22,647 nt of DNA. It comes from a virus. Shown piece after piece: positions 1-22,647 of this stretch. Both the position numbers and the translations under genes were made by a program. The notes under the pieces are model-generated. The model was not told the origin of the DNA and did not search any database. It saw nothing but the letters and a program-made list of their open reading frames with translations. Position 1 is the first letter of the stretch. The number at the start of each line of letters is the position of its first letter. The stretch is taken from positions 1 to 22,647 of IMG/VR virus record IMGVR_UViG_3300021963_000703; one strand, written 5' to 3'.

Positions 1-1024
1 TTGTATCTGCTTCAATCCTACTTTGAGAGGCTCGCATCGCACTCTCCTTATTAGCCTTTATTTTTGCTTCACTATCTGCTCCAAAGTCTCCCAGAGTAAT
101 TTGTTTATTTTTCTTTCCTAATAGATGATTTTCGCGATTAATATCTTTATATGCTTCTTTTAATTTTTCTGCCAGGTCATAACGATCTTTTTCAGCTTTA
201 CTCATTGGCACTTCATTTTGCTTACCTGTTCTTGGATCTGTGAATATTTTGTTGCCGCGAGCGTTAGCTTCGTCTTCTGCTTTTTTTGCTTTCTTTTGTG
301 CTTCGTCTATATAGATTGCCAGTTTACCGAATGATGTTATTAGACTATCATTAACGGATTTAGCAATAGCATCTATGGCTGTTTGATATTTTGCCAGTTG
401 TGCTATTTGAGCATCTTTGAAAGGATCATTAGCAGCGTTAAGTTTAGTGAAGTCTAACTTATTTGCTGTCTTACCAAATATATCTACAGCCAGTGCGGCT
501 CTTTTCGCTGGATCTTCTATGGCTGCCAGTTTGCCTACAGCATCACGAAGTACATCGCCTGTATTGCGGACATTGCCACCAGCATCTCTAACGAACACAC
601 CCAGCTTTTGAAACGCCTTTTGTGCTGTCTCATTGCCCATCGCGGCTTCGCCCAGATTTTGATTTAGTTTTGCCGCTAATGTTGAAAAGTCTTCTGTCTT
701 ACCACCAGCATCTACCAGGCTATTCTTAAAATTGTTTAAGGCACCAGCACTAATACCAGTGGCACTACTAATATCATCTAATTCATCTGCCAGTTGTACT
801 GCTCTTAATCCCAGAGCAGCGAAGGCACCTGCGGCCGCAGCGGCACCCAAGCCCAGGGGTCCCAGTTTACCTACAATACCGCCTATAGTATTAGATAGTG
901 GACCGCCCACTGCTGCTAAATTTTGTAAATCGCTGGTTAATCCATCTACACCTTTACGAAGATTATTAAGTTGATTAACACCTTCTGTTTTAATTCTTAA
1001 TACGAAGTCTTGAATTGCTGCCAT
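1..1024 (-). CDS. Tail tape measure protein, N-terminal part (runs off the window)
   Basis: The frame opens with ATG at 1024-1022, eight bases after the stop of the preceding gene, and stays open to the window edge; 341 codons are visible. A tape measure sets tail length and is threaded inside the tail tube. The visible part fits the family. It starts with a short amphipathic segment, followed by an Ala/Gly-rich hydrophobic stretch at about residues 44-75. Next comes a segment reading DDISSATGIS at about 83-92, the usual start of the tape-measure core, and then Lys/Ala-rich helical sequence with many charged heptads. Its place directly after the frameshifting chaperone and the gp10-like gene is the classical siphovirus order. 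The full protein is expected to be far longer, so length and any C-terminal lytic or membrane domains cannot be judged here. Confidence 0.85.
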   Translation of the reverse strand, partial: MAAIQDFVLRIKTEGVNQLNNLRKGVDGLTSDLQNLAAVGGPLSNTIGGIVGKLGPLGLGAAAAAGAFAALGLRAVQLADELDDISSATGISAGALNNFKNSLVDAGGKTEDFSTLAAKLNQNLGEAAMGNETAQKAFQKLGVFVRDAGGNVRNTGDVLRDAVGKLAAIEDPAKRAALAVDIFGKTANKLDFTKLNAANDPFKDAQIAQLAKYQTAIDAIAKSVNDSLITSFGKLAIYIDEAQKKAKKAEDEANARGNKIFTDPRTGKQNEVPMSKAEKDRYDLAEKLKEAYKDINRENHLLGKKNKQITLGDFGADSEAKIKANKESAMRASQSRIEADT

Positions 1025-1032
1025 ATTTTATT

Positions 1033-1305
1033 TCACTTAGGTTGTTTCTTTATATACTCTTGTATAAACTTTTCTGTGGGTTTGGTCATACCTTGTGGGG
1101 CTTGATTACTATAACCCTCATCTAATCTCTGTGCGTAAGGATATTCTGCCCGTATTTCATTGCCCTGTAATCTTGTTCTACTGCGAGCATTACCACTGCG
1201 AACTGGAGTTTCTCGCTTAAAATAGTCATAGGCTTCTCGGGCCAGATTATTAGGATCCAGTGCCCGTTCCAGTTCATTAATGCGTTTGACTATTTCACCT
1301 GCCAT
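1033..1305 (-). CDS. HK97 gp10-like tail-component protein
   Basis: This is a 90-aa protein. The N-terminal helix (about residues 5-28) is followed by TPVRSGNARSRT (about 33-44), then a YPYAQRLDEG segment and GMTKPTEKFI near the C-terminus. That sequence of blocks (a TPVRTGxLRxS-type motif, then a YAxxLExG-type motif, then a late MxPT-type motif) is the signature of the HK97 gp10 family of minor tail or tail-completion proteins. The start codon overlaps the stop of the chaperone extension as TAATG, so the two are probably translationally coupled. In most siphoviruses the gp10-type gene lies before the major tail protein; here it lies between chaperone and tape measure, so its exact role may differ. 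The family call rests on motif memory, not on a search. Confidence 0.65.
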   Translation of the reverse strand: MAGEIVKRINELERALDPNNLAREAYDYFKRETPVRSGNARSRTRLQGNEIRAEYPYAQRLDEGYSNQAPQGMTKPTEKFIQEYIKKQPK

Positions 1306-1861
1306 TATTGTTTGTCCTTGTTTCTAACTCGTTCCAGGGCTGCCATCATTTCTTCTTGACTTAATTTCGGTGTTGGATTTTTTCCAGAAGCCTGTTCGTG
1401 TTGATATTGTTCCCAAGACATCATTACATCATAGATCATTAAATCATAGGTAGTGGCTGATTCACGAACTACACTGGGCAGCACTCCGTATTGTTTAGCC
1501 ATCATACCTATGTTTATCATTTCTATGCTTGCCCAGTCGTTGGTGTTGATGCCTTGGCTTTTGACTTTCCCAGGAATTCATTGATCTTTACAAGTAAGGT
1601 TAGTGTAAGATCCACAGGTAATATTTCTTCCTGTGTAATAGCCGGTGTGCCATCTTCTTTGAGAATGATCTTACGCAATAAGTCGTTTAACTTATCGCTG
1701 TCCTGATCCTGCTGTAATCTATAGAACTCAAAATAGGTTGAGATAGTCATTTGATCCAGCATATGAAACTCTATGGTTTCACCATATTGTTCTACGACTT
1801 CTGCTTCATCTAACACTATTTTTGTTAGTTCTGGTTTCTTTGCGAATTTACTAATATCCAT
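1305..1861 (-). CDS. Tail assembly chaperone, long -1 frameshift product (gpGT-like)
   Basis: Residues 1-99 are shared with the short chaperone. At 1571-1565 the minus strand reads GGGAAAG, in phase G-GGA-AAG, the same slippery heptamer used for lambda gpG-T. Slipping back one base continues the reading as GTC AAA AGC with no stop for 86 more codons, ending at 1305, for about 185 aa in total. The extension enters the frame whose first ATG is at 1520. It carries a block typical of the T part of such proteins (MMAKQYGVLPSVV, then a helix with YDLMIYDVMMSWEQYQ). The long form is expected to bind the tape measure and recruit tail-tube subunits during assembly. No strong downstream pseudoknot was identified, which is also true for several known sites of this class. 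Confidence 0.82.
1523..1861 (-). CDS. Tail assembly chaperone, short form (gpG-like)
   Basis: This 112-aa protein starts at ATG 1861, three bases after the stop of the preceding gene. It is acidic and helical with a segment ILKEDGTPAI that resembles other gpG-type chaperones (metal- or tail-protein-binding alpha/beta proteins), and it ends with a Thr/Ala-rich tail. Its position between the major tail gene and the tape measure, plus the lambda-type slippery site near its 3' end (codons 98-99), supports the role. As in lambda, the short form would be the main product and the frameshifted form a minority. If the frameshift were absent, the frame at 1520-1305 would have to be a separate gene; nothing resembling a good ribosome binding site precedes its ATG. 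Confidence 0.8.
   Translation of the reverse strand: MDISKFAKKPELTKIVLDEAEVVEQYGETIEFHMLDQMTISTYFEFYRLQQDQDSDKLNDLLRKIILKEDGTPAITQEEILPVDLTLTLLVKINEFLGKSKAKASTPTTGQA
1565..1571 (-). other. Programmed -1 frameshift slippery heptamer GGGAAAG
   Basis: The heptamer is in the correct phase (G GGA AAG; codons 98 and 99 of the chaperone). The -1 frame after it is open into the conserved chaperone extension. It is identical to the lambda G-T slippery sequence. Confidence 0.85.
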
Positions 1862-1864
1862 AAA

Positions 1865-2038
1865 TCATCGTCCTTCATATCGTTGTTTTAGGTAATGAAC
1901 CGTAGCCAGTACGAACTTCATTCTAACTTCTGCCTGTTCCAAGTCTCTCTTGGCACATCTAATTTCGTTTAATGCTTTAGCTACTTCTGCTTCTACACTG
2001 CGAAATATCTCATCATCTGTTTTGTCATCAAATATCAT
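1865..2038 (-). CDS. Small coiled-coil protein of unknown function
   Basis: I do not recognise this gene. The frame can be read from 2077, but the third in-frame ATG (2038-2036) has a strong ribosome binding site (GGAGG, five bases upstream), giving a 57-aa product; the longer reading would begin close to the terminator at 2083-2103 and before the promoter-like box. The product is acidic and almost wholly helical, with regularly spaced Ala/Leu/Val and charged residues (about 12-50) that suggest a coiled coil. It is the first gene after the terminator/promoter pair and lies just before the chaperone, so a tail-assembly role is plausible but unproven. Confidence 0.65.
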   Translation of the reverse strand: MIFDDKTDDEIFRSVEAEVAKALNEIRCAKRDLEQAEVRMKFVLATVHYLKQRYEGR

Positions 2039-2058
2039 TGATACCTCCATATCATTGT

Positions 2059-2066
2059 TATTTATG
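2059..2066 (-). promoter_or_regulatory. Late-promoter-like box CATAAATA
   Basis: It matches NATAAATA, the T4/cyanomyovirus late-promoter consensus. It lies 20 bases upstream of the ATG at 2038 and 16 bases downstream of the terminator at 2083-2103, so it would restart transcription for the chaperone-tape measure block. Confidence 0.55.
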
Positions 2067-2082
2067 CTGTCTTTCACCTGAC

Positions 2083-2128: not shown

Positions 2129-2596
2129 TTAGGTCACGGTGTAATCGCCGGTGACGGTAATTGTCACGGGACTGATCCACACTGGACTATCTGCTGACAC
2201 CGTTGGGCTTAGACCTGTGATATAGCCGTCGCCACTGATAGTCTTACCTGTGCCGCCTGAACTTGTATCACCGAGATATAAGCTGAAGTGTGTTAGAGTC
2301 TTATTTTTGCTTAGACCAAAGATACCTTTGTTAATAGCCACAGGAGTACCTGAGCCTGTTCCAAAGAATACCGTTTGATCTAATACTAAGTTAAGATCTA
2401 AACTATTTGTTGCTGTGGTCGCAACTTGTAATTTACTACCGCTGTCTAATTGAGTCCAGGTGAAAACATCATTGGAATTATTTACCGTGACATTTTGAAT
2501 CGCTGGAATCACTAAGTCACTGGTATCTCCACTAACGCTGATGTTCAGCGTCATTTGAACGCCGGCAACGCCTGGTGCTGGAAATATGTATGCCAT
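2129..2596 (-). CDS. Major tail (tube) protein
   Basis: This 155-aa protein is rich in Thr, Ser, Val and Gly with alternating hydrophobic positions throughout, as expected of the beta-sandwich of a tail-tube subunit. It reads like an Ig-like/tube fold at both ends: an N-terminal FPAPGVAGVQMTLN and a C-terminal SPVWISPVTITVTGDYTVT. The start is ATG 2596, preceded by AAGGAAA. It follows the putative tail terminator and precedes the chaperone, which is the standard tube position, and a strong terminator closes the unit behind it, fitting a highly expressed virion protein. A fibre or decoration protein is the main alternative; no family motif was recognised with certainty. Confidence 0.7.
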   Translation of the reverse strand: MAYIFPAPGVAGVQMTLNISVSGDTSDLVIPAIQNVTVNNSNDVFTWTQLDSGSKLQVATTATNSLDLNLVLDQTVFFGTGSGTPVAINKGIFGLSKNKTLTHFSLYLGDTSSGGTGKTISGDGYITGLSPTVSADSPVWISPVTITVTGDYTVT

Positions 2597-8275: not shown

Positions 8276-8672
8276 CTATATCTTCTATGAATTTATTATC
8301 TTCATCGTCTGTGAAAGGTAATACACCCTTACTATCACCCTGAGGACTTTCTTGTTGTCCCAAGATGTTCTTACCCAGCCAGATCAGCATAGTAGCGTTG
8401 CCGTTTATAGCCAGTTTAATTTGAGCACGACGAAGTGCTTGTTTTGTTTCACTGCGACCTTTTGCTACCATATCGCTAAAGTTATACTTTAATGTATTTG
8501 CCGGTACCGCAAAGAAGTCACTCATTTCTTCCCAGCTACACCATAGTTTGGCTAACTTATAGATTTCTTCAGGATCTATCACGGTTTTGTTTTCACCGCG
8601 ACCCACTACCAGACCTTCCTTGGTCATAGTACCATATTTGGGGTTTTCTCGGTTGTGATATTCAACTGCCAT
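8262..8672 (-). CDS. terS: Terminase small subunit
   Basis: The preferred start is ATG 8672, which overlaps the end of the methyltransferase gene by 11 bases and has a weak GGA site; an ATG at 8714 would add 14 residues but lacks a ribosome binding site. The 136-aa product has an Asp/Glu-Ile-Tyr-Lys-Leu-Ala segment leading into a helix-turn-helix-like block (about residues 40-75: LWCSWEEMSDFFAVPANTL) and then KLAINGNATMLIWLGKNILG. That last phrase recurs in many phage small terminases and other phage HTH proteins. It would recognise the packaging site and present DNA to TerL, whose gene follows immediately with an overlap. The acidic C-terminus is typical of the part that contacts TerL. Confidence 0.8.
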   Translation of the reverse strand: MAVEYHNRENPKYGTMTKEGLVVGRGENKTVIDPEEIYKLAKLWCSWEEMSDFFAVPANTLKYNFSDMVAKGRSETKQALRRAQIKLAINGNATMLIWLGKNILGQQESPQGDSKGVLPFTDDEDNKFIEDIDGTE

Positions 8673-10044
8673 TATTTGATTCCATGTTGAAGAAGTCTGC
8701 GAGATGTTCGTCATCTACTTGATAGTAATCTATGTTATCCCAGGGTGTGCCATCACTGCGTATAGCTTGTTCTCCTGAGAAGTCTTGCCAGCGTTTGATG
8801 ATGACATCTACATATTTTGGTTGTAATTCTATGAGTCTGGCTCTGCGACCAGTTTGTTCTGCGGCTATTAGTGTTGATCCTGATCCGCCAAAGGGATCTA
8901 ATACTATGTCGTTTTTAATACTACTATTTAACATCATTTCGGTGATGAGTTTAACAGGCTTCATTGTTGGATGTAAGTCTGCTTTCTGTGTCTTATTACA
9001 ATTAATTGCGTCCTGGGGATAACTTTGTAATGCTTTGATTAATTCGTCCTTGGTCCATTTAGTATAGTCTATTCTTTGATCTATTACTGCGTCTGTGCCT
9101 CGGTCACTGATGAAGTATCTTATTGCTCCAGGTTTGATGGCATAGATAATTGGCTCATATCGTTTTTGATAGTCACTGCCGCCCAGCACTATGGTATTCT
9201 TAACCCAGACCAAATTTTGTTTGAACTTATAGCCAGATAGTTTAGTTGCTTGGTGAAAGTTGTGTATTTCACTTTCGCTGTGACTGATGTATATAGCCGC
9301 ACCTTCTTTGACATTATTGTATGTTTGTTTGATTGCTTTATATATGAACTCTGCGAATTCTTCGTCGGTCATCTTATCGTTGGCGATTACATCATTTTGT
9401 TTATGCTGTTCGCTGGCTGCCCAGCGGCTGTTCTTTGTTCTATATTTGGCACTTTGATATGCTATGTTATATGGTGGATCTGTCCAGCATAGATCCGCTG
9501 ATTCTTGGTTCATTAGTAGCTGATATGTTTCGTCGCTGAGACTATCACCACAGACTATTCTATGATTGCCTAATATCCATAGGTCGCCTTTTTTAGCTCT
9601 ATATTCTGTGGCTACTTCTGGCACAGCATCTGGATCTGTTAGTCCATCTTCGCTGTCACGAAATAGTTCGTTGAGATCTTCTGCCGTAAAACCAGTGTAT
9701 GCTAGATCATAGGTTGATTCTAAATCTTTGAGTTCTTGTTTCAGTAATTCGTTGTCCCAGTCTGCGTTTTCATTACTGCGATTATCCATGATGCGATATG
9801 CTCGTATCTGTTCTTCATTGAGTTCGTCGGCGATGATCACAGGCACTATGAGATAATTTAGTTCTCGGGCTGCCTGATATCTTGTATGTCCCACCACGAT
9901 AGTCATGTCTTTGTCCACAACTATGGGTTGTTTGAAGCCAAACTCTTTGAGACTAATCTTTAGTGTTTCTATGGCGGCTTTGTTCTTACGGGGATTCTTT
10001 GCGTAGGGTTTAATTAAACCTATGTCTATTTGTTCTATTTTCAT
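8662..10044 (-). CDS. ParB-like domain fused to DNA adenine methyltransferase
   Basis: ATG 10044 is chosen because AGGAT precedes it; the frame could be opened at 10107, but that would overlap the previous gene by 34 bases. The 460-aa product has an N-terminal ParB/Srx-like domain (about 1-90) with QPIVVD and GHTRYQAA at 52-59. The methyltransferase begins at about residue 150: motif IV is DPPY at 189-192, HPTMKP sits at 358-363 and the SAM-binding motif I is DPFGGSGST at 383-391. The IV-before-I order is that of beta-class N6/N4 methyltransferases, and DPPY suggests N6-adenine. No restriction enzyme is adjacent, so it is an orphan enzyme, perhaps protecting phage DNA or marking it before packaging. 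ParB-MTase fusions are widespread in phages. Confidence 0.93.
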   Translation of the reverse strand: MKIEQIDIGLIKPYAKNPRKNKAAIETLKISLKEFGFKQPIVVDKDMTIVVGHTRYQAARELNYLIVPVIIADELNEEQIRAYRIMDNRSNENADWDNELLKQELKDLESTYDLAYTGFTAEDLNELFRDSEDGLTDPDAVPEVATEYRAKKGDLWILGNHRIVCGDSLSDETYQLLMNQESADLCWTDPPYNIAYQSAKYRTKNSRWAASEQHKQNDVIANDKMTDEEFAEFIYKAIKQTYNNVKEGAAIYISHSESEIHNFHQATKLSGYKFKQNLVWVKNTIVLGGSDYQKRYEPIIYAIKPGAIRYFISDRGTDAVIDQRIDYTKWTKDELIKALQSYPQDAINCNKTQKADLHPTMKPVKLITEMMLNSSIKNDIVLDPFGGSGSTLIAAEQTGRRARLIELQPKYVDVIIKRWQDFSGEQAIRSDGTPWDNIDYYQVDDEHLADFFNMESNNGS

Positions 10045-10073
10045 ATCTGTTAATATCCTATATTGATGTTTAT

Positions 10074-10340
10074 TTAATCTACAATTCTCACAGAGAAGTC
10101 CTGGCAATTAAACATTTTGTTTAATCTCTGTGCCAGTCTATATGCGTGTGCTTGATTGGTATAAGTTGTTCTTTCATACTTTAATCTTTCTACAAGATCC
10201 TGGGCACTCCAGTATTTTCTACGAAGACTGAAGTGTCTTCGCCGATATAACACTACCCATAGCTGGGTACCGGCTAATACTTCAGTACAACATTCGTCGC
10301 TGTCATTGCTGATTAATATTTCTGCTCCTGGGCGTGCCAT
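10074..10340 (-). CDS. Small basic protein of unknown function
   Basis: This 88-aa protein is not recognised. It begins with MARPGAEILISNDSDECC and contains a strand-rich stretch with WVVLYRRRHFSLRRKYWS. A C-terminal helix and strand follow (AYRLAQRLNKMFNCQDFSVRIV). The Arg-rich centre suggests nucleic-acid contact. The pattern of a short strand, a helix containing AYRLAQRLN and a final strand with F-V-R-I-V recalls small phage proteins of unknown function that handle 'amino-acid plus helix' repeats, but no family is claimed. Its ATG overlaps the previous stop as TAATG, so it is coupled to its neighbour. Confidence 0.6.
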   Translation of the reverse strand: MARPGAEILISNDSDECCTEVLAGTQLWVVLYRRRHFSLRRKYWSAQDLVERLKYERTTYTNQAHAYRLAQRLNKMFNCQDFSVRIVD

Positions 10341-17471: not shown

Positions 17472-20400
17472 TTAGGTAATTGAGCCGCGACTCATACCAG
17501 TGAATGTAATTGTTGATGTCACATTGCTACTTGCGACTTGATTAACATTGGCAGTCAATATAAAAATACCCGATGAAATACTGGGCGTTAGTGTGTTTAT
17601 CACTGGATTACCTACTACCATCTCGGAAAATATGTTAATATACTGAGTTGAATCACTGGTTCTATGTATAACCATGCCTTCCATATAGTGTATGTTAGCC
17701 AGTGTGGCGGTAATATTTTGTCGCACCATTAAGTGGAATCTAACTCCAGAGTAATCATTTACACTGATATTATTGAATACAATTAAATCTTGTGTGCCTG
17801 AGCCTGCACTGGATGCTGTGTAGCGTTGATCACCGCGTATAGAATACGGCATTGTTATTTCGCCACCTACACTGACATCATTGGTGAACGCGATATCTGT
17901 GCCACTCATTGTTATAACAGCATCACCAGTTGATGATTCTATTTGATTGCCTGTGACTTTTAAGTCGCCACCAATAACAACATCTGTGCCATTAAGTTCA
18001 ATACTATTGCCGCCTGTTGAACTATTCTTAATGATATCTGCTACAATATTGCCATTAAATCTTGTATAACCTGTGGCACTACCTATGCTGACAACACCGG
18101 CATTTAAGAACGCAGTGACGGTTGTTGGGCCATCATTAGTTCCACTGCTTGGACTATCTTTATTAAACAATTCAAAAGTAGTAGCTGTACTATACAAGTT
18201 GCCGCCATTGATTGCCAGACCCGTGCCACCTATTTCAAGAGTATTGTTAATAGTTGTTGTGCCTGAGCCTGAACCGATATTGATATCTGTGGCCGCACCA
18301 AAGGCATTTACCGTTGTTGCCACCGTGTTATATAAAAATTGTGTGCTACTGGCACCCTTCAGTGTTTCACTGCGGATAGTGGTAGTTCCCACGGTAGCAC
18401 CCAAACGCAATGTTGAGGCAACACCAAAAGCATCTACACCAGTGGCCACCGTATCAAATACATTTATGTCAGCCTGTGTGGTAAGAAGATTGCCACCCTG
18501 TATTTCAAGATTATTACTAGTGATAACTTTACCTTCACCACCACGAGTAGTTAGTAATAAATTGGCAGCACCTGGTCCATTATACAAGTAAACTTCAGCA
18601 CCCTGATCTGCTCCTGCCTGGAAGTTAGTGGCCAAACGCATGCCTGCGGCACCATTAGTCATAACATTGGCACCGGCACCAGGATCACCTACTACCACAT
18701 AATCACTGACTAATTTAGTAATGCCTGTGCTACTGGGAGTAATAACAATATCACTGGCAGTGCTGCCACTGGTTATTCTTAATTCACCGGTGCTGTTTGT
18801 AATATCGCCGCCTCTAACATCTAGATCTCCCAGTAGAACCGTATCGGCATTGCGAATCGTTGTTGTGCCTGTGGTAGCACCTAGAGTAATTGCTGTGCCA
18901 GCACCAAAGGCATTTACCGTTGTTGCTGTTGTATTATATAAGTTCTGTGTTGTTTGTGTGCCCACTAATGTTGGACTACCAATAGTGGTAGTGCCAGAAT
19001 TAGCAGCCAGATTTAACGCTGTAGCCGCACCAAAGGCATTTACCGTTGTTGCGGTTGTATTATATAAGTTCTGTGTTGTTTGTGTGCCCACCAGAGTAGG
19101 GCTACGCAGTGTTGTTGTGCCAGAGTTATTACCTACATTTAACGCTGTGGCCGCGCCAAAAGCATTTACCGTTGTTGCTGTTGTATTAAACACAGCCTGT
19201 GTTGTATTGAAACCTTCAATACTTGGTGATTTAATTTGAACACGACCAGAACCTGTATTACCCAGATTAACTTCTGTGGTAGCACCATTACCTACATTGA
19301 CCGTAGTTGCTGTAGCATTGAATAAATTACCAGTTGTCTGTGTAGTTGTGATATCACCACCATTGACAGCGAGATCTAGACCAATAGTTGTATTATTTGG
19401 AATACTTGTATCACCTACATTGTCCAATAATGTTAAACTATGTACTATAGGTGCTGTGCCACCTTCCCAGGGCGGCCCACTTATGCCAGATCCAGCATAT
19501 TGTCTAACATATATTTCACCACCATTACTGCCACTGCCAGCGTTGTCGCCTGTGGCAATTTCCAGATAACCCAGATCTGTGCCAGCACTGCCTGATCCCA
19601 CGAACCAGGGATCATTGTTGGCACTCTTACCACGAATACCATACAGGGGATTAGCACCTGCGGCCTGTGTTTGGAATGTTAGAAAAGGTCTTGTGCCATT
19701 TATTTCTACATTTTGTTGTAGGCCTGTGTATGGATCGCGTATTCTTAATATACTGGAGTTAATCCACTGACTGGTAGCACTATCATAGATCAGTGTTTGA
19801 CCACTTTGTCTGCTGGTTATGGTGACATCACTGAGATCATTGAGGCTACCACCGCCTACTGGGCTTGGCTCATACTGGAAGTTGTCTGTGTCCAGATCTG
19901 CGGCACCATTAACACTCATTTCTCCAAAGATCTTACGCAGTCCCATACGAGCTCTAACGAACCAGCGTCTCCAAGTGCCCAGATTAGCCGGCACCGTTGT
20001 CACCACATAATTTACGGTTTCGCCATTAATAAATTGACTATTATTGCCTGGTGGAACAATACTGAGTAGATAATTATAGTCATCATCTTCGGGCACATCA
20101 TATAATGTAGCTGATCCTGCGGCTGTAGCACTGACATCTACAACATAAGTGCCATTGCCGCCGGTGACCGCATAACTACCTGAGGCCTGCACCGTAAAAG
20201 GTCTATCTACTCTAACCGTATTATTGGCAAGATCTATGTCAATAATTTGTCCGCCGGTGGCCAGACCTGTACCCGTTAGTCTATTACCCAATAAAATACC
20301 AGTTAGGTCTGTCATTTTGATTAAGAACTCACCTACACCACCCAGACTATGATAAGTCTTTGATGCTGGTGTATTGGTTAATTGACTTAGCACGGTCACT

Positions 20401-22647
20401 GGAGGAGATAAATCAAAATAGTCTCCAGTGTTGATACTACCATAGGGTGTTGAAGTCACGGTTAATAAGCCGTTGCCCACTGGTGCTCCATTGCTGCCTG
20501 TGCCAGGTACAATACTGCCTGTCACGGTCATTGGATCCCAGCCTTCAGTGTAATACATTTCTATTTCATTGAAAGGTCCGCCTGTTGCGGGAACATCAAT
20601 TTGTATGGTAAAATTCGGTATAGCCACATCAGCATCTACTTCACTGATTCTAATTATTGGTGGTGGTAATACCACACTGGTATTTCCAGGCTGTATGCCA
20701 ATATTTTCGTTGGTGCTAAATTCTGTTATAGCCTCCAGGGTATAAACATCAGGATTATATTCCAGAGCTTGTATTCTTGCTACCAGACCGCCGTCATCGC
20801 TTTCTACTTCTTTGACACGCATAACCCTAAAATATTTTGGATACCAGTTATATAATTCACTGGTCACAGCTATTATATCACCGGCCTGTGCTTGTATGCC
20901 ATAGAAGTTGCTGGTAAAATCTATGGCCAAGTCTTCTCGGCTTTGACGCATTTCCATACCACCAAGTATCTGTGCTTGAACGCTGTTATTCACTAAACTT
21001 AAACTCATTCTTAGTTGATTATCAGGTTCGTTTTGATTTCTTAGAGTTTCTGGTAAATCTGTTCTTGCGTAATCTCGTTGGTCCTTGTTATATTTGTTGT
21101 AAAATTCTACATCTACCTGATTGTATAGATCTTCTAAACGAGTAGCACTTAAATTAATACCACTGATAATGTTATCATCACTGAATGCCAATACACTTGC
21201 TGGTAGAGTATAGAATGTTGAACTTGACAGAGTTGTTGATACACTGATAGTATAACGACCTTTTTGTCCAGTTGTTTCTCCTGTTGTAGGTGTTAGTTGT
21301 GCTACAATCGTACCAATCAATGAACCAGCATTATTGTATAGTTTTTGTCCAGGTTCTATGCGACCTGCGGGAAAGGCAGTCACGGTCATTGTTGTACTAC
21401 TTGGTCCCACGCTGGCTGTAAAATATGTTGAAGTTTCACCGGGAGTGCCTGCTGATACAGCTTTCTTAATAACTGGGCTCCATAATCCTGTGGCCACATT
21501 ATAACTCATCCAAGCACCACCATTGTTTAAGATAACATCTATATTTGTCTTAACTTCGTTGGCAGTGTCTAATAGTCCGTTGATATTATATCTTGTGGTT
21601 AGTTGATTAGCGTTGCCAGCCAGATCGGTATAAGAGATATCATCATTACAGAATGTATCCCAGGTTGCCAACGCTACAAGGTCCAGGTCGCTGGCACTGA
21701 TGCCTGCACCATAACGCTGACTGGTCATATAGTCATACCATACATCTGCTGGATTAACTATATTATTAGTAATTTGGAATGTCATATTTGGCAGACTTGT
21801 AAATCCCCGATCAGCGTTGTAATTTACTCGTACTATGGCAAATACCAGACCTTTCATTTGATATGTGCTGTCCCACTCACCACCATCATCTGTCCAGAAG
21901 TCCCAGGCGTTTTGTGTATTGCCTGAACTCTGTGGTGGATATATTTGATCTGCGGCACTGCCACTGCCAGCATAAACACGCACTTGAACCAGAGCGTCAT
22001 TGTTCAATAAGAAGTTAGTGTCAATAAAATCTTCTTCCTGTGCTCGTCCTGTGCCTGTGCCCACGGTGGCTGCCAGAAATACGCTGCCAATACCATAAGT
22101 TTGACCCAGTGATCCTGCTATAGTATTCCATTGTGCCTGAGTGGTATTACCCAGATCTGTGATAACATAAGTATCGCCCACCACGAAACTACCTGCTGTG
22201 ATTATATCACCATCAACTACTTTTCTACCATCTTTAACTTTGTGTGCGTTGGTTGTTGAATCCACAGGCGTTAAGCGTAGATCATTCCAATATAATTGTT
22301 CCAGAGTATATGTGGGATCAATATCAAATCTTGTTGGATTTAATTTTTCACTGAGCACCATTGAATAAAACATTGTCTTATTTTCGTTGATCAGTCTGGC
22401 ATCTGTGATCGCACCATTTACATAGGCACTGCCATATAACACTGGCACTTTATTATTAGTTGCTGGTGCTACCTGAACACGACCACCTTGACTTGAATAG
22501 GCACTATTATTACCTTTGTTAGGATTACCATTGATAATCCTTGATGTTATGTAAGCGGCTCCTGTGGCTACAATACTGGCAACCAATACGCCACCTGCGG
22601 ATAAACCCACACCGGCTATAATTGCGGCTGTACCGGTCAGGCCTAAT
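17472..22647 (-). CDS. Giant gpJ-like tail tip protein with fibre repeats (5' end outside window)
   Basis: The frame is open to the window edge (sequence reading LGLTGTAAIIAG before a GTG at 22610), so the true start lies beyond it; residues are counted from that GTG (1712 aa visible). The N-terminus is Gly/Ala-rich and hydrophobic. About 40-690 is a gpJ-type tail hub: VPVLYGSAYVNGAITDARLI, a segment with DYMTSQRYGAGISASDLDL and CNDDISY (about 293-326), and a later QVDVEFYNKYNKDQRDYA with MRQSREDLAIDFTSNFYG. Two inserted modules interrupt it: residues about 137-191 and 397-472. FNIII-like segments follow (about 660-900). From about 1090 to 1600 the protein is a fibre shaft with 42-aa repeats (TTATTVNAFGAAT, TLVGTQTTQN) and 'ITMSGTDIAF'-type units. 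A C-terminal globular domain contains NDYSGVRFHLMVRQN. It would form the adsorption tip and a central fibre. Confidence 0.82.
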   Translation of the reverse strand, partial: LGLTGTAAIIAGVGLSAGGVLVASIVATGAAYITSRIINGNPNKGNNSAYSSQGGRVQVAPATNNKVPVLYGSAYVNGAITDARLINENKTMFYSMVLSEKLNPTRFDIDPTYTLEQLYWNDLRLTPVDSTTNAHKVKDGRKVVDGDIITAGSFVVGDTYVITDLGNTTQAQWNTIAGSLGQTYGIGSVFLAATVGTGTGRAQEEDFIDTNFLLNNDALVQVRVYAGSGSAADQIYPPQSSGNTQNAWDFWTDDGGEWDSTYQMKGLVFAIVRVNYNADRGFTSLPNMTFQITNNIVNPADVWYDYMTSQRYGAGISASDLDLVALATWDTFCNDDISYTDLAGNANQLTTRYNINGLLDTANEVKTNIDVILNNGGAWMSYNVATGLWSPVIKKAVSAGTPGETSTYFTASVGPSSTTMTVTAFPAGRIEPGQKLYNNAGSLIGTIVAQLTPTTGETTGQKGRYTISVSTTLSSSTFYTLPASVLAFSDDNIISGINLSATRLEDLYNQVDVEFYNKYNKDQRDYARTDLPETLRNQNEPDNQLRMSLSLVNNSVQAQILGGMEMRQSREDLAIDFTSNFYGIQAQAGDIIAVTSELYNWYPKYFRVMRVKEVESDDGGLVARIQALEYNPDVYTLEAITEFSTNENIGIQPGNTSVVLPPPIIRISEVDADVAIPNFTIQIDVPATGGPFNEIEMYYTEGWDPMTVTGSIVPGTGSNGAPVGNGLLTVTSTPYGSINTGDYFDLSPPVTVLSQLTNTPASKTYHSLGGVGEFLIKMTDLTGILLGNRLTGTGLATGGQIIDIDLANNTVRVDRPFTVQASGSYAVTGGNGTYVVDVSATAAGSATLYDVPEDDDYNYLLSIVPPGNNSQFINGETVNYVVTTVPANLGTWRRWFVRARMGLRKIFGEMSVNGAADLDTDNFQYEPSPVGGGSLNDLSDVTITSRQSGQTLIYDSATSQWINSSILRIRDPYTGLQQNVEINGTRPFLTFQTQAAGANPLYGIRGKSANNDPWFVGSGSAGTDLGYLEIATGDNAGSGSNGGEIYVRQYAGSGISGPPWEGGTAPIVHSLTLLDNVGDTSIPNNTTIGLDLAVNGGDITTTQTTGNLFNATATTVNVGNGATTEVNLGNTGSGRVQIKSPSIEGFNTTQAVFNTTATTVNAFGAATALNVGNNSGTTTLRSPTLVGTQTTQNLYNTTATTVNAFGAATALNLAANSGTTTIGSPTLVGTQTTQNLYNTTATTVNAFGAGTAITLGATTGTTTIRNADTVLLGDLDVRGGDITNSTGELRITSGSTASDIVITPSSTGITKLVSDYVVVGDPGAGANVMTNGAAGMRLATNFQAGADQGAEVYLYNGPGAANLLLTTRGGEGKVITSNNLEIQGGNLLTTQADINVFDTVATGVDAFGVASTLRLGATVGTTTIRSETLKGASSTQFLYNTVATTVNAFGAATDINIGSGSGTTTINNTLEIGGTGLAINGGNLYSTATTFELFNKDSPSSGTNDGPTTVTAFLNAGVVSIGSATGYTRFNGNIVADIIKNSSTGGNSIELNGTDVVIGGDLKVTGNQIESSTGDAVITMSGTDIAFTNDVSVGGEITMPYSIRGDQRYTASSAGSGTQDLIVFNNISVNDYSGVRFHLMVRQNITATLANIHYMEGMVIHRTSDSTQYINIFSEMVVGNPVINTLTPSISSGIFILTANVNQVASSNVTSTITFTGMSRGSIT
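18280..19330 (-). repeat. 126-bp in-frame tandem repeats in the tip gene
   Basis: A string beginning GCACCAAAGGCATTTACCGT (plus strand) occurs at 18901 and 19027 and as GCGCCAAAAGCATTTACC at 19153, exactly 126 bases apart; the first two copies are nearly identical for about 65 bases. Weaker copies start near 18298 and 18424. They encode 42-aa fibre units with TTATTVNAFG. Confidence 0.85.

Follow-up and report, generated by a model that had tools for sequence, protein, structure and literature searches.

A predicted lambda-type −1 frameshift in the tail assembly chaperone locus of an uncultured phage family, with in-frame G-T fusions in three related loci

In the IMG/VR virus record IMGVR_UViG_3300021963_000703 (22,647 nucleotides, analysed over its full length and called here the window), a short open reading frame (ORF) placed like a tail assembly chaperone gene is followed in the −1 frame by a second ORF. 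The question is whether the latter is a separate gene or an extension reached by ribosomes that slip near the end of the former. A preliminary description had proposed a lambda-type programmed −1 frameshift in a tail chaperone. The features considered are the following (positions of the window).

2-1024, minus strand: tape measure protein, running off the window (PHROG phrog_8462, 1.3e-14; phrog_2276, 1.1e-13)
1033-1305, minus strand: Neck1-like protein of 90 aa, its C-terminal part like tail completion/Neck1 proteins (PHROG phrog_169, E 1.9e-6)
1565-1305, minus strand: T, the −1 frame extension, 86 codons plus the TAA stop (1307-1305)
1571-1565, minus strand: slippery heptamer G GGA AAG, codons 97 (third base) to 99 of G
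1861-1523, minus strand: G, the short tail assembly chaperone ORF, 112 aa, ATG start, zero frame
1875-1871, minus strand: AAGGA, Shine-Dalgarno-like, 9 nt 5' of the ATG of G, presumed to function as such
1865-2077, minus strand: 70-aa ORF between the putative tail tube gene and G, with no assigned function
2129-2596, minus strand: putative tail tube protein of 155 aa, so named by position alone, its place resembling that of the «major tail protein» gene of phage DSL-LC06
3532-4389, minus strand: major capsid protein (PHROG phrog_267, 4.6e-26; Pfam PF25209, above its cut-off)

The end of G reads CTG GGA AAG TCA ... TAG. The zero-frame codons at the site are thus CTG(97), GGA(98) and AAG(99), i.e., the X XXY YYZ phase. 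The preliminary description had placed GGGAAAG in the correct phase, with 86 codons of −1 frame behind it and products of 112 and about 185 aa. These points were all recovered: the heptamer is read G-GGA-AAG within the 112-codon ORF, the −1 frame stays open to the TAA at 1307-1305, and the ORF coordinates give predicted products of 112 aa (G) and 99 + 86 = 185 aa (GT, for a −1 slip at codon 99). Upstream, the −1 frame is closed by the TGA at 1580-1578, just 6 nt 5' of the heptamer. The 22,647-base record has one GGGAAAG on each strand. In-frame separate short and long chaperone genes, i.e., the T4-like arrangement, are absent in the window.

Within the window no ATG, GTG or TTG precedes T residue 16, so that the earliest possible start in the T frame is the ATG at 1520, 15 codons past the heptamer. 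No Shine-Dalgarno-like sequence was seen by eye 5' of this ATG, which agrees with the earlier statement that the extension has no start with a ribosome binding site. Judged from the sequence, it is almost certain that a programmed −1 slip at G GGA AAG makes a 112-aa G and a 185-aa GT.

In order to see how far this arrangement is kept, the predicted fusion was scanned against viral contigs, which gave 33 related loci, and profiles of G and T added more. Of the 180 T relatives listed in the T-profile search, 80 entered the counts, besides others fetched by another scan. Together with the window, 189 fetched loci were pooled; duplicates were merged by T-ORF sequence, many being the same contig fetched again, and L034 and L082 (one contig), which stop short of the site, were left out. 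At least 95 distinct loci of viral contigs, the window included, carry a T domain. Among the matches listed, 92 of 95 have the in-phase heptamer with the −1 overlap (GGGAAAG in 88, GGGAAAA in 4), and the remaining 3 (L081, L124 and L134) have G and T domains fused in frame. In other words, every two-ORF locus among these matches (92/92) keeps the heptamer in phase, which is strong evidence for the lambda-type programmed frameshift of the preliminary description. As a background, 345 other forward-strand ORFs from the fetched loci, each 150 aa long or longer and together 112,076 codons, contain a single in-phase GGGAAAR, and about 0.00016 would be expected by chance in an 18-codon overlap.

Codon use at the site is also constrained. 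In the 14 representatives obtained by clustering at 90%, Gly98 is always GGA, which accounts for 18% of Gly codons, and the Leu97 codon always ends in G. Other invariant Gly residues vary in codon: Gly27 is GGC in 6, GGT in 5 and GGA in 3; Gly71 is GGC in 11, GGA in 2 and GGT in 1. Several codons are used at other invariant residues, and the site is kept at the nucleotide level.

Could T nevertheless be a separate gene, started at the ATG at 1520 (giving 71 aa) or at a later Met, with the heptamer incidental? This ATG does exist in the window, and the first start codon is T residue 16 in 50 of the 92 loci among the matches listed. In 39 of the 92 listed, however, the first T-frame start lies at residues 21 to 49. 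Moreover, the T frame opens 3-15 nt 5' of the heptamer in 88 of 92 loci among the matches listed, and T is conserved as a protein, including the part ahead of any start (20-row alignment; that of G has 18 rows), as the preliminary description had held for the extension. Ahead of the conserved Trp at T residues 10-12, up to which this stretch runs, the T frame has no ATG, GTG or TTG in 91 of the 92 listed loci; the exception is L173, with a T-frame ATG 6 nt 5' of the heptamer. An independent start thus cannot yield the conserved T. As the heptamer is moreover retained in all 92 and the ATG at 1520 has no Shine-Dalgarno-like sequence upstream, a separate T gene is very improbable. The codon-position signal within the overlap is weak, as expected where a stretch is read in two frames: the entropy is 0.91, 0.90 and 1.04 at T positions 1, 2 and 3, weakly favouring coding in the T frame, and codons with a single difference number 326 nonsynonymous and 258 synonymous in the T frame, 396 and 155 in the G frame.

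Slippage of the RNA polymerase, rather than of the ribosome, would likewise give both products from one gene. However, GGGAAAG holds no long homopolymer run, the extra TTTTTTG found a few bases upstream in three loci is missing from most, and the conserved two-codon X XXY YYZ phase is a requirement of tandem tRNA slippage; this explanation deserves hardly any credence. A sequencing or assembly indel that split one continuous gene, for which nothing specific speaks, is refuted by the presence of the same split in 92 distinct loci from many metagenomes, with the G stop and the T frame conserved.

According to the ribosomal −1 slip, most ribosomes would terminate at the G stop, having made the 112-aa chaperone. 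In a minority, with GGA in the P site and AAG in the A site, a slip back by one base (from G GGA AAG to GGG AAA) would lead into T and give the 185-aa G-T fusion. If the roles are as in lambda, the tape measure protein would be coated by G, and GT, the rarer form, would recruit tail tube subunits via T. We infer the slippage itself, its efficiency and the partner proteins.

No conserved downstream RNA structure was found by RNAalifold on 20 sequences (8 pairs, 0 with a two-sided change), nor an unusually stable fold 3' of the site in single-strand folds of 85 nt from 8 loci (z from −1.82 to 1.59). Three candidate signals were rejected: (i) a TGG/CCA stem overlaps the heptamer itself; (ii) a distant CTGGG/CCCAG stem falls on the conserved T-frame codons for Asp-Trp and Leu-Pro-Ser; (iii) the conserved CCAAG just 3' of the heptamer is sufficiently explained by its coding in both frames, for Gln in T and for Lys in G. 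The heptamer appears to work in this phage family with no conserved downstream structure. A review (PMC5009743) gives G_GGA_AAG as highly shift-prone in E. coli, so that the bare heptamer, with no stimulator, may suffice.

At the other end of T, the T stop and the ATG of the Neck1-like gene share one base (TAATG, 1303-1307), and many relatives have a similar junction, TAATG or ATGA. Through this overlap, frameshifted ribosomes might feed the Neck1-like gene by coupling.

The identity of G as a chaperone is drawn from several sources. G/T is located between the tube gene assigned by position and the tape measure gene, with one small Neck1-like gene intervening. The tube gene has no PHROG match, and its Pfam matches are at chance level only; the tape measure protein also matches Pfam PhageMin_Tail at 8.7e-7, under the curated bit cut-off. 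Pfam TAC_13 is matched below threshold by 8 of 18 members of the G family (best E 0.0088; 14.7 bits for the window against a cut-off of 28.8). The first BFVD match of G is A0A6J5LPC3, a protein of 114 aa named tail assembly chaperone, 86% identical. The model of G (mean pLDDT 72.8) finds the HK97 chaperone 2ob9 first among PDB structures by Foldseek, a weak match (E 0.11, model residues 1-105), and VIA-align ranks it tied first, again weakly (Z 5.4). The G profile gave one chance match among PDB sequences. For T there is no convincing fold match in PDB and no PHROG family above chance level.

Searches for more distant relatives gave little: tblastn of GT against 50,697 phage records brought up no relative with an E value of 1 or less, the T of locus L033 gave two chance-like Microviridae matches, the L124 fusion gave two weak Klebsiella phage matches (E 0.01-0.05 over 53%), and the T profile gave no relative in genome contigs. 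No single match is decisive. It is the position, the frameshift and the TAC_13, BFVD and HK97 matches together that make a strong sequence-based case for a lambda G/GT-type tail assembly chaperone, in agreement with the chaperone identity given in the preliminary description.

Pelagiphages HTVC026P, HTVC111P, HTVC112P and HTVC202P have a terminase and a capsid (the latter by tblastn) that share about 50% identity with their counterparts in the window. Elsewhere in the window, a 481-aa ORF (8662-10107) adjoins the packaging genes; by eye, we take it to resemble a fusion of a ParB-like domain and a DNA methyltransferase. A 1712-aa ORF (17472-22610) has repeats such as TTVNAFGAATALN in its C-terminal half (by eye); its appearance is that of a long, internally repetitive tail protein.

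The three loci without the heptamer come from two metagenome samples and encode a separate G followed by a second gene, denoted G'T.

L124:2345-3267: separate G and G'T fusion
L134:2345-3258: separate G and G'T fusion
L081:1-923: separate G and G'T fusion

The standalone G gene ends with TAA and is followed, after 2 bases, by the ATG of the second gene, which encodes a further G domain and T in a single frame. In the separate G, the alignment to the G family covers residues 1-98. In the profile alignment, fusion residues 7-93 correspond to G 11-97 and residues 96-181 to T 1-86; the fused protein thus has the junction predicted for a slip at codon 99, with two other residues in place of the Gly-Lys of the slip site. 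The fusion proteins of L081 and L134 are 65-76% identical to that of L124. L124 and L134 have the same order as the window: capsid, 172-aa, 130-aa, 158-aa and about 62-aa proteins, G, G'T, a Neck1-like protein of about 90 aa and tape measure. The gene families in this order were tested for L134. The ORF of 61-62 aa in L124 and L134 occupies the place of the 70-aa ORF of the window.

The preliminary description had named a disrupted heptamer with independent starts in relatives as evidence against the frameshift. Such an arrangement is present in form in these 3 of 95 loci among the matches listed, but a G-T fusion is still encoded there, since in the gene with the independent start T is preceded by a further G domain. 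These in-frame fusions support, at the level of sequence, a G-T fusion as the functional long product.

A tree of G domains groups the separate G copies of the three loci with their fused G' copies (86/89), on a branch 2.25 long and with a midpoint root; given this branch and this rooting, no timing is claimed for the duplication. In a quick tree of T, the three loci stand beside frameshifting loci with SH-aLRT 89, below the 95 mark. A T tree constrained to unite the three with eight frameshifting loci beat the free search and was not rejected (p-AU 0.708), which does not prove the clade.

It is likely that the frameshift was lost in this family and replaced by a duplication: G would have lost the heptamer and T, while a second copy of G, starting 2 nt past the G stop, was joined to T in the same frame. 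As G'T has its own start at this distance, the G:GT ratio would be set there by translation initiation and not by slippage. If this is true, the family, with its gene order otherwise unchanged in L124 and L134, would amount to a natural experiment: neither product could be dispensed with, and Leu-Gly-Lys would be kept at the slip site for the sake of the RNA and not of the protein. In the literature searched, which was thin on subscription papers, no paper brought gene duplication together with tail assembly chaperones and frameshifting; one paper mentions a paralog along with the latter two.

An annotation that ignores the frameshift misses the long product or calls T a separate gene. In the records of phages DSL-LC06, HTVC026P and HTVC111P, an unannotated gap follows the chaperone gene. 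The ORF at the chaperone position in HTVC111P (L191:10399-10931), DSL-LC06 (L192:10298-10818) and HTVC026P (L193:10396-10904) ends with an in-phase A-rich heptamer, AAAAAAG or AAAAAAC; beyond it, some 60-70 codons of −1 frame that carry no annotation are open in the direction of the tape measure gene. From their sequences, these are probably unannotated frameshift extensions.

The closest known system is that of lambda. Lambda itself uses the heptamer G_GGA_AAG. The window shares with it (i) a −1 shift, here predicted, at this shift-prone heptamer; (ii) a G that ends soon after the site, with T as an extension that is not started independently; (iii) a location ahead of the tape measure gene. 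Unlike lambda, the window has a 90-aa Neck1-like gene between T and tape measure and a 70-aa ORF before G, and it has no above-threshold sequence kinship to a named chaperone family. The lambda G/GT chaperones are the subject of Levin 1993 and Xu 2004, 2013 and 2014, as cited in PMC5009743. The window is thus another instance of the known lambda G/GT kind, in an uncultured phage family.

The HK97 tail assembly chaperone 2ob9, the top Foldseek match in PDB for the G model, shares 9-10% identity with it and is suggestive only. The chaperone locus of Vandenendeviridae/Andersonviridae (phage Adele), for which PMC12846349 infers a conserved −1 shift from comparative genomics, has the same gene position as the window but a GTTTTT motif instead of GGGAAAG.

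T4-like phages have separate short and in-frame long chaperone genes and no frameshift, according to the PRFect paper (PMC10885494, citing Vladimirov 2022). The window frameshifts, in contrast, by the reading preferred here. It is the three frameshift-free loci that resemble T4-like phages, with one short gene and one in-frame fusion gene, and this same solution, as described in that paper, is a precedent for them. The present family differs from T4-like phages in that the frameshift-free form is found among frameshifting relatives of the same gene order, and it therefore offers a closely matched comparison of two routes to G and GT.
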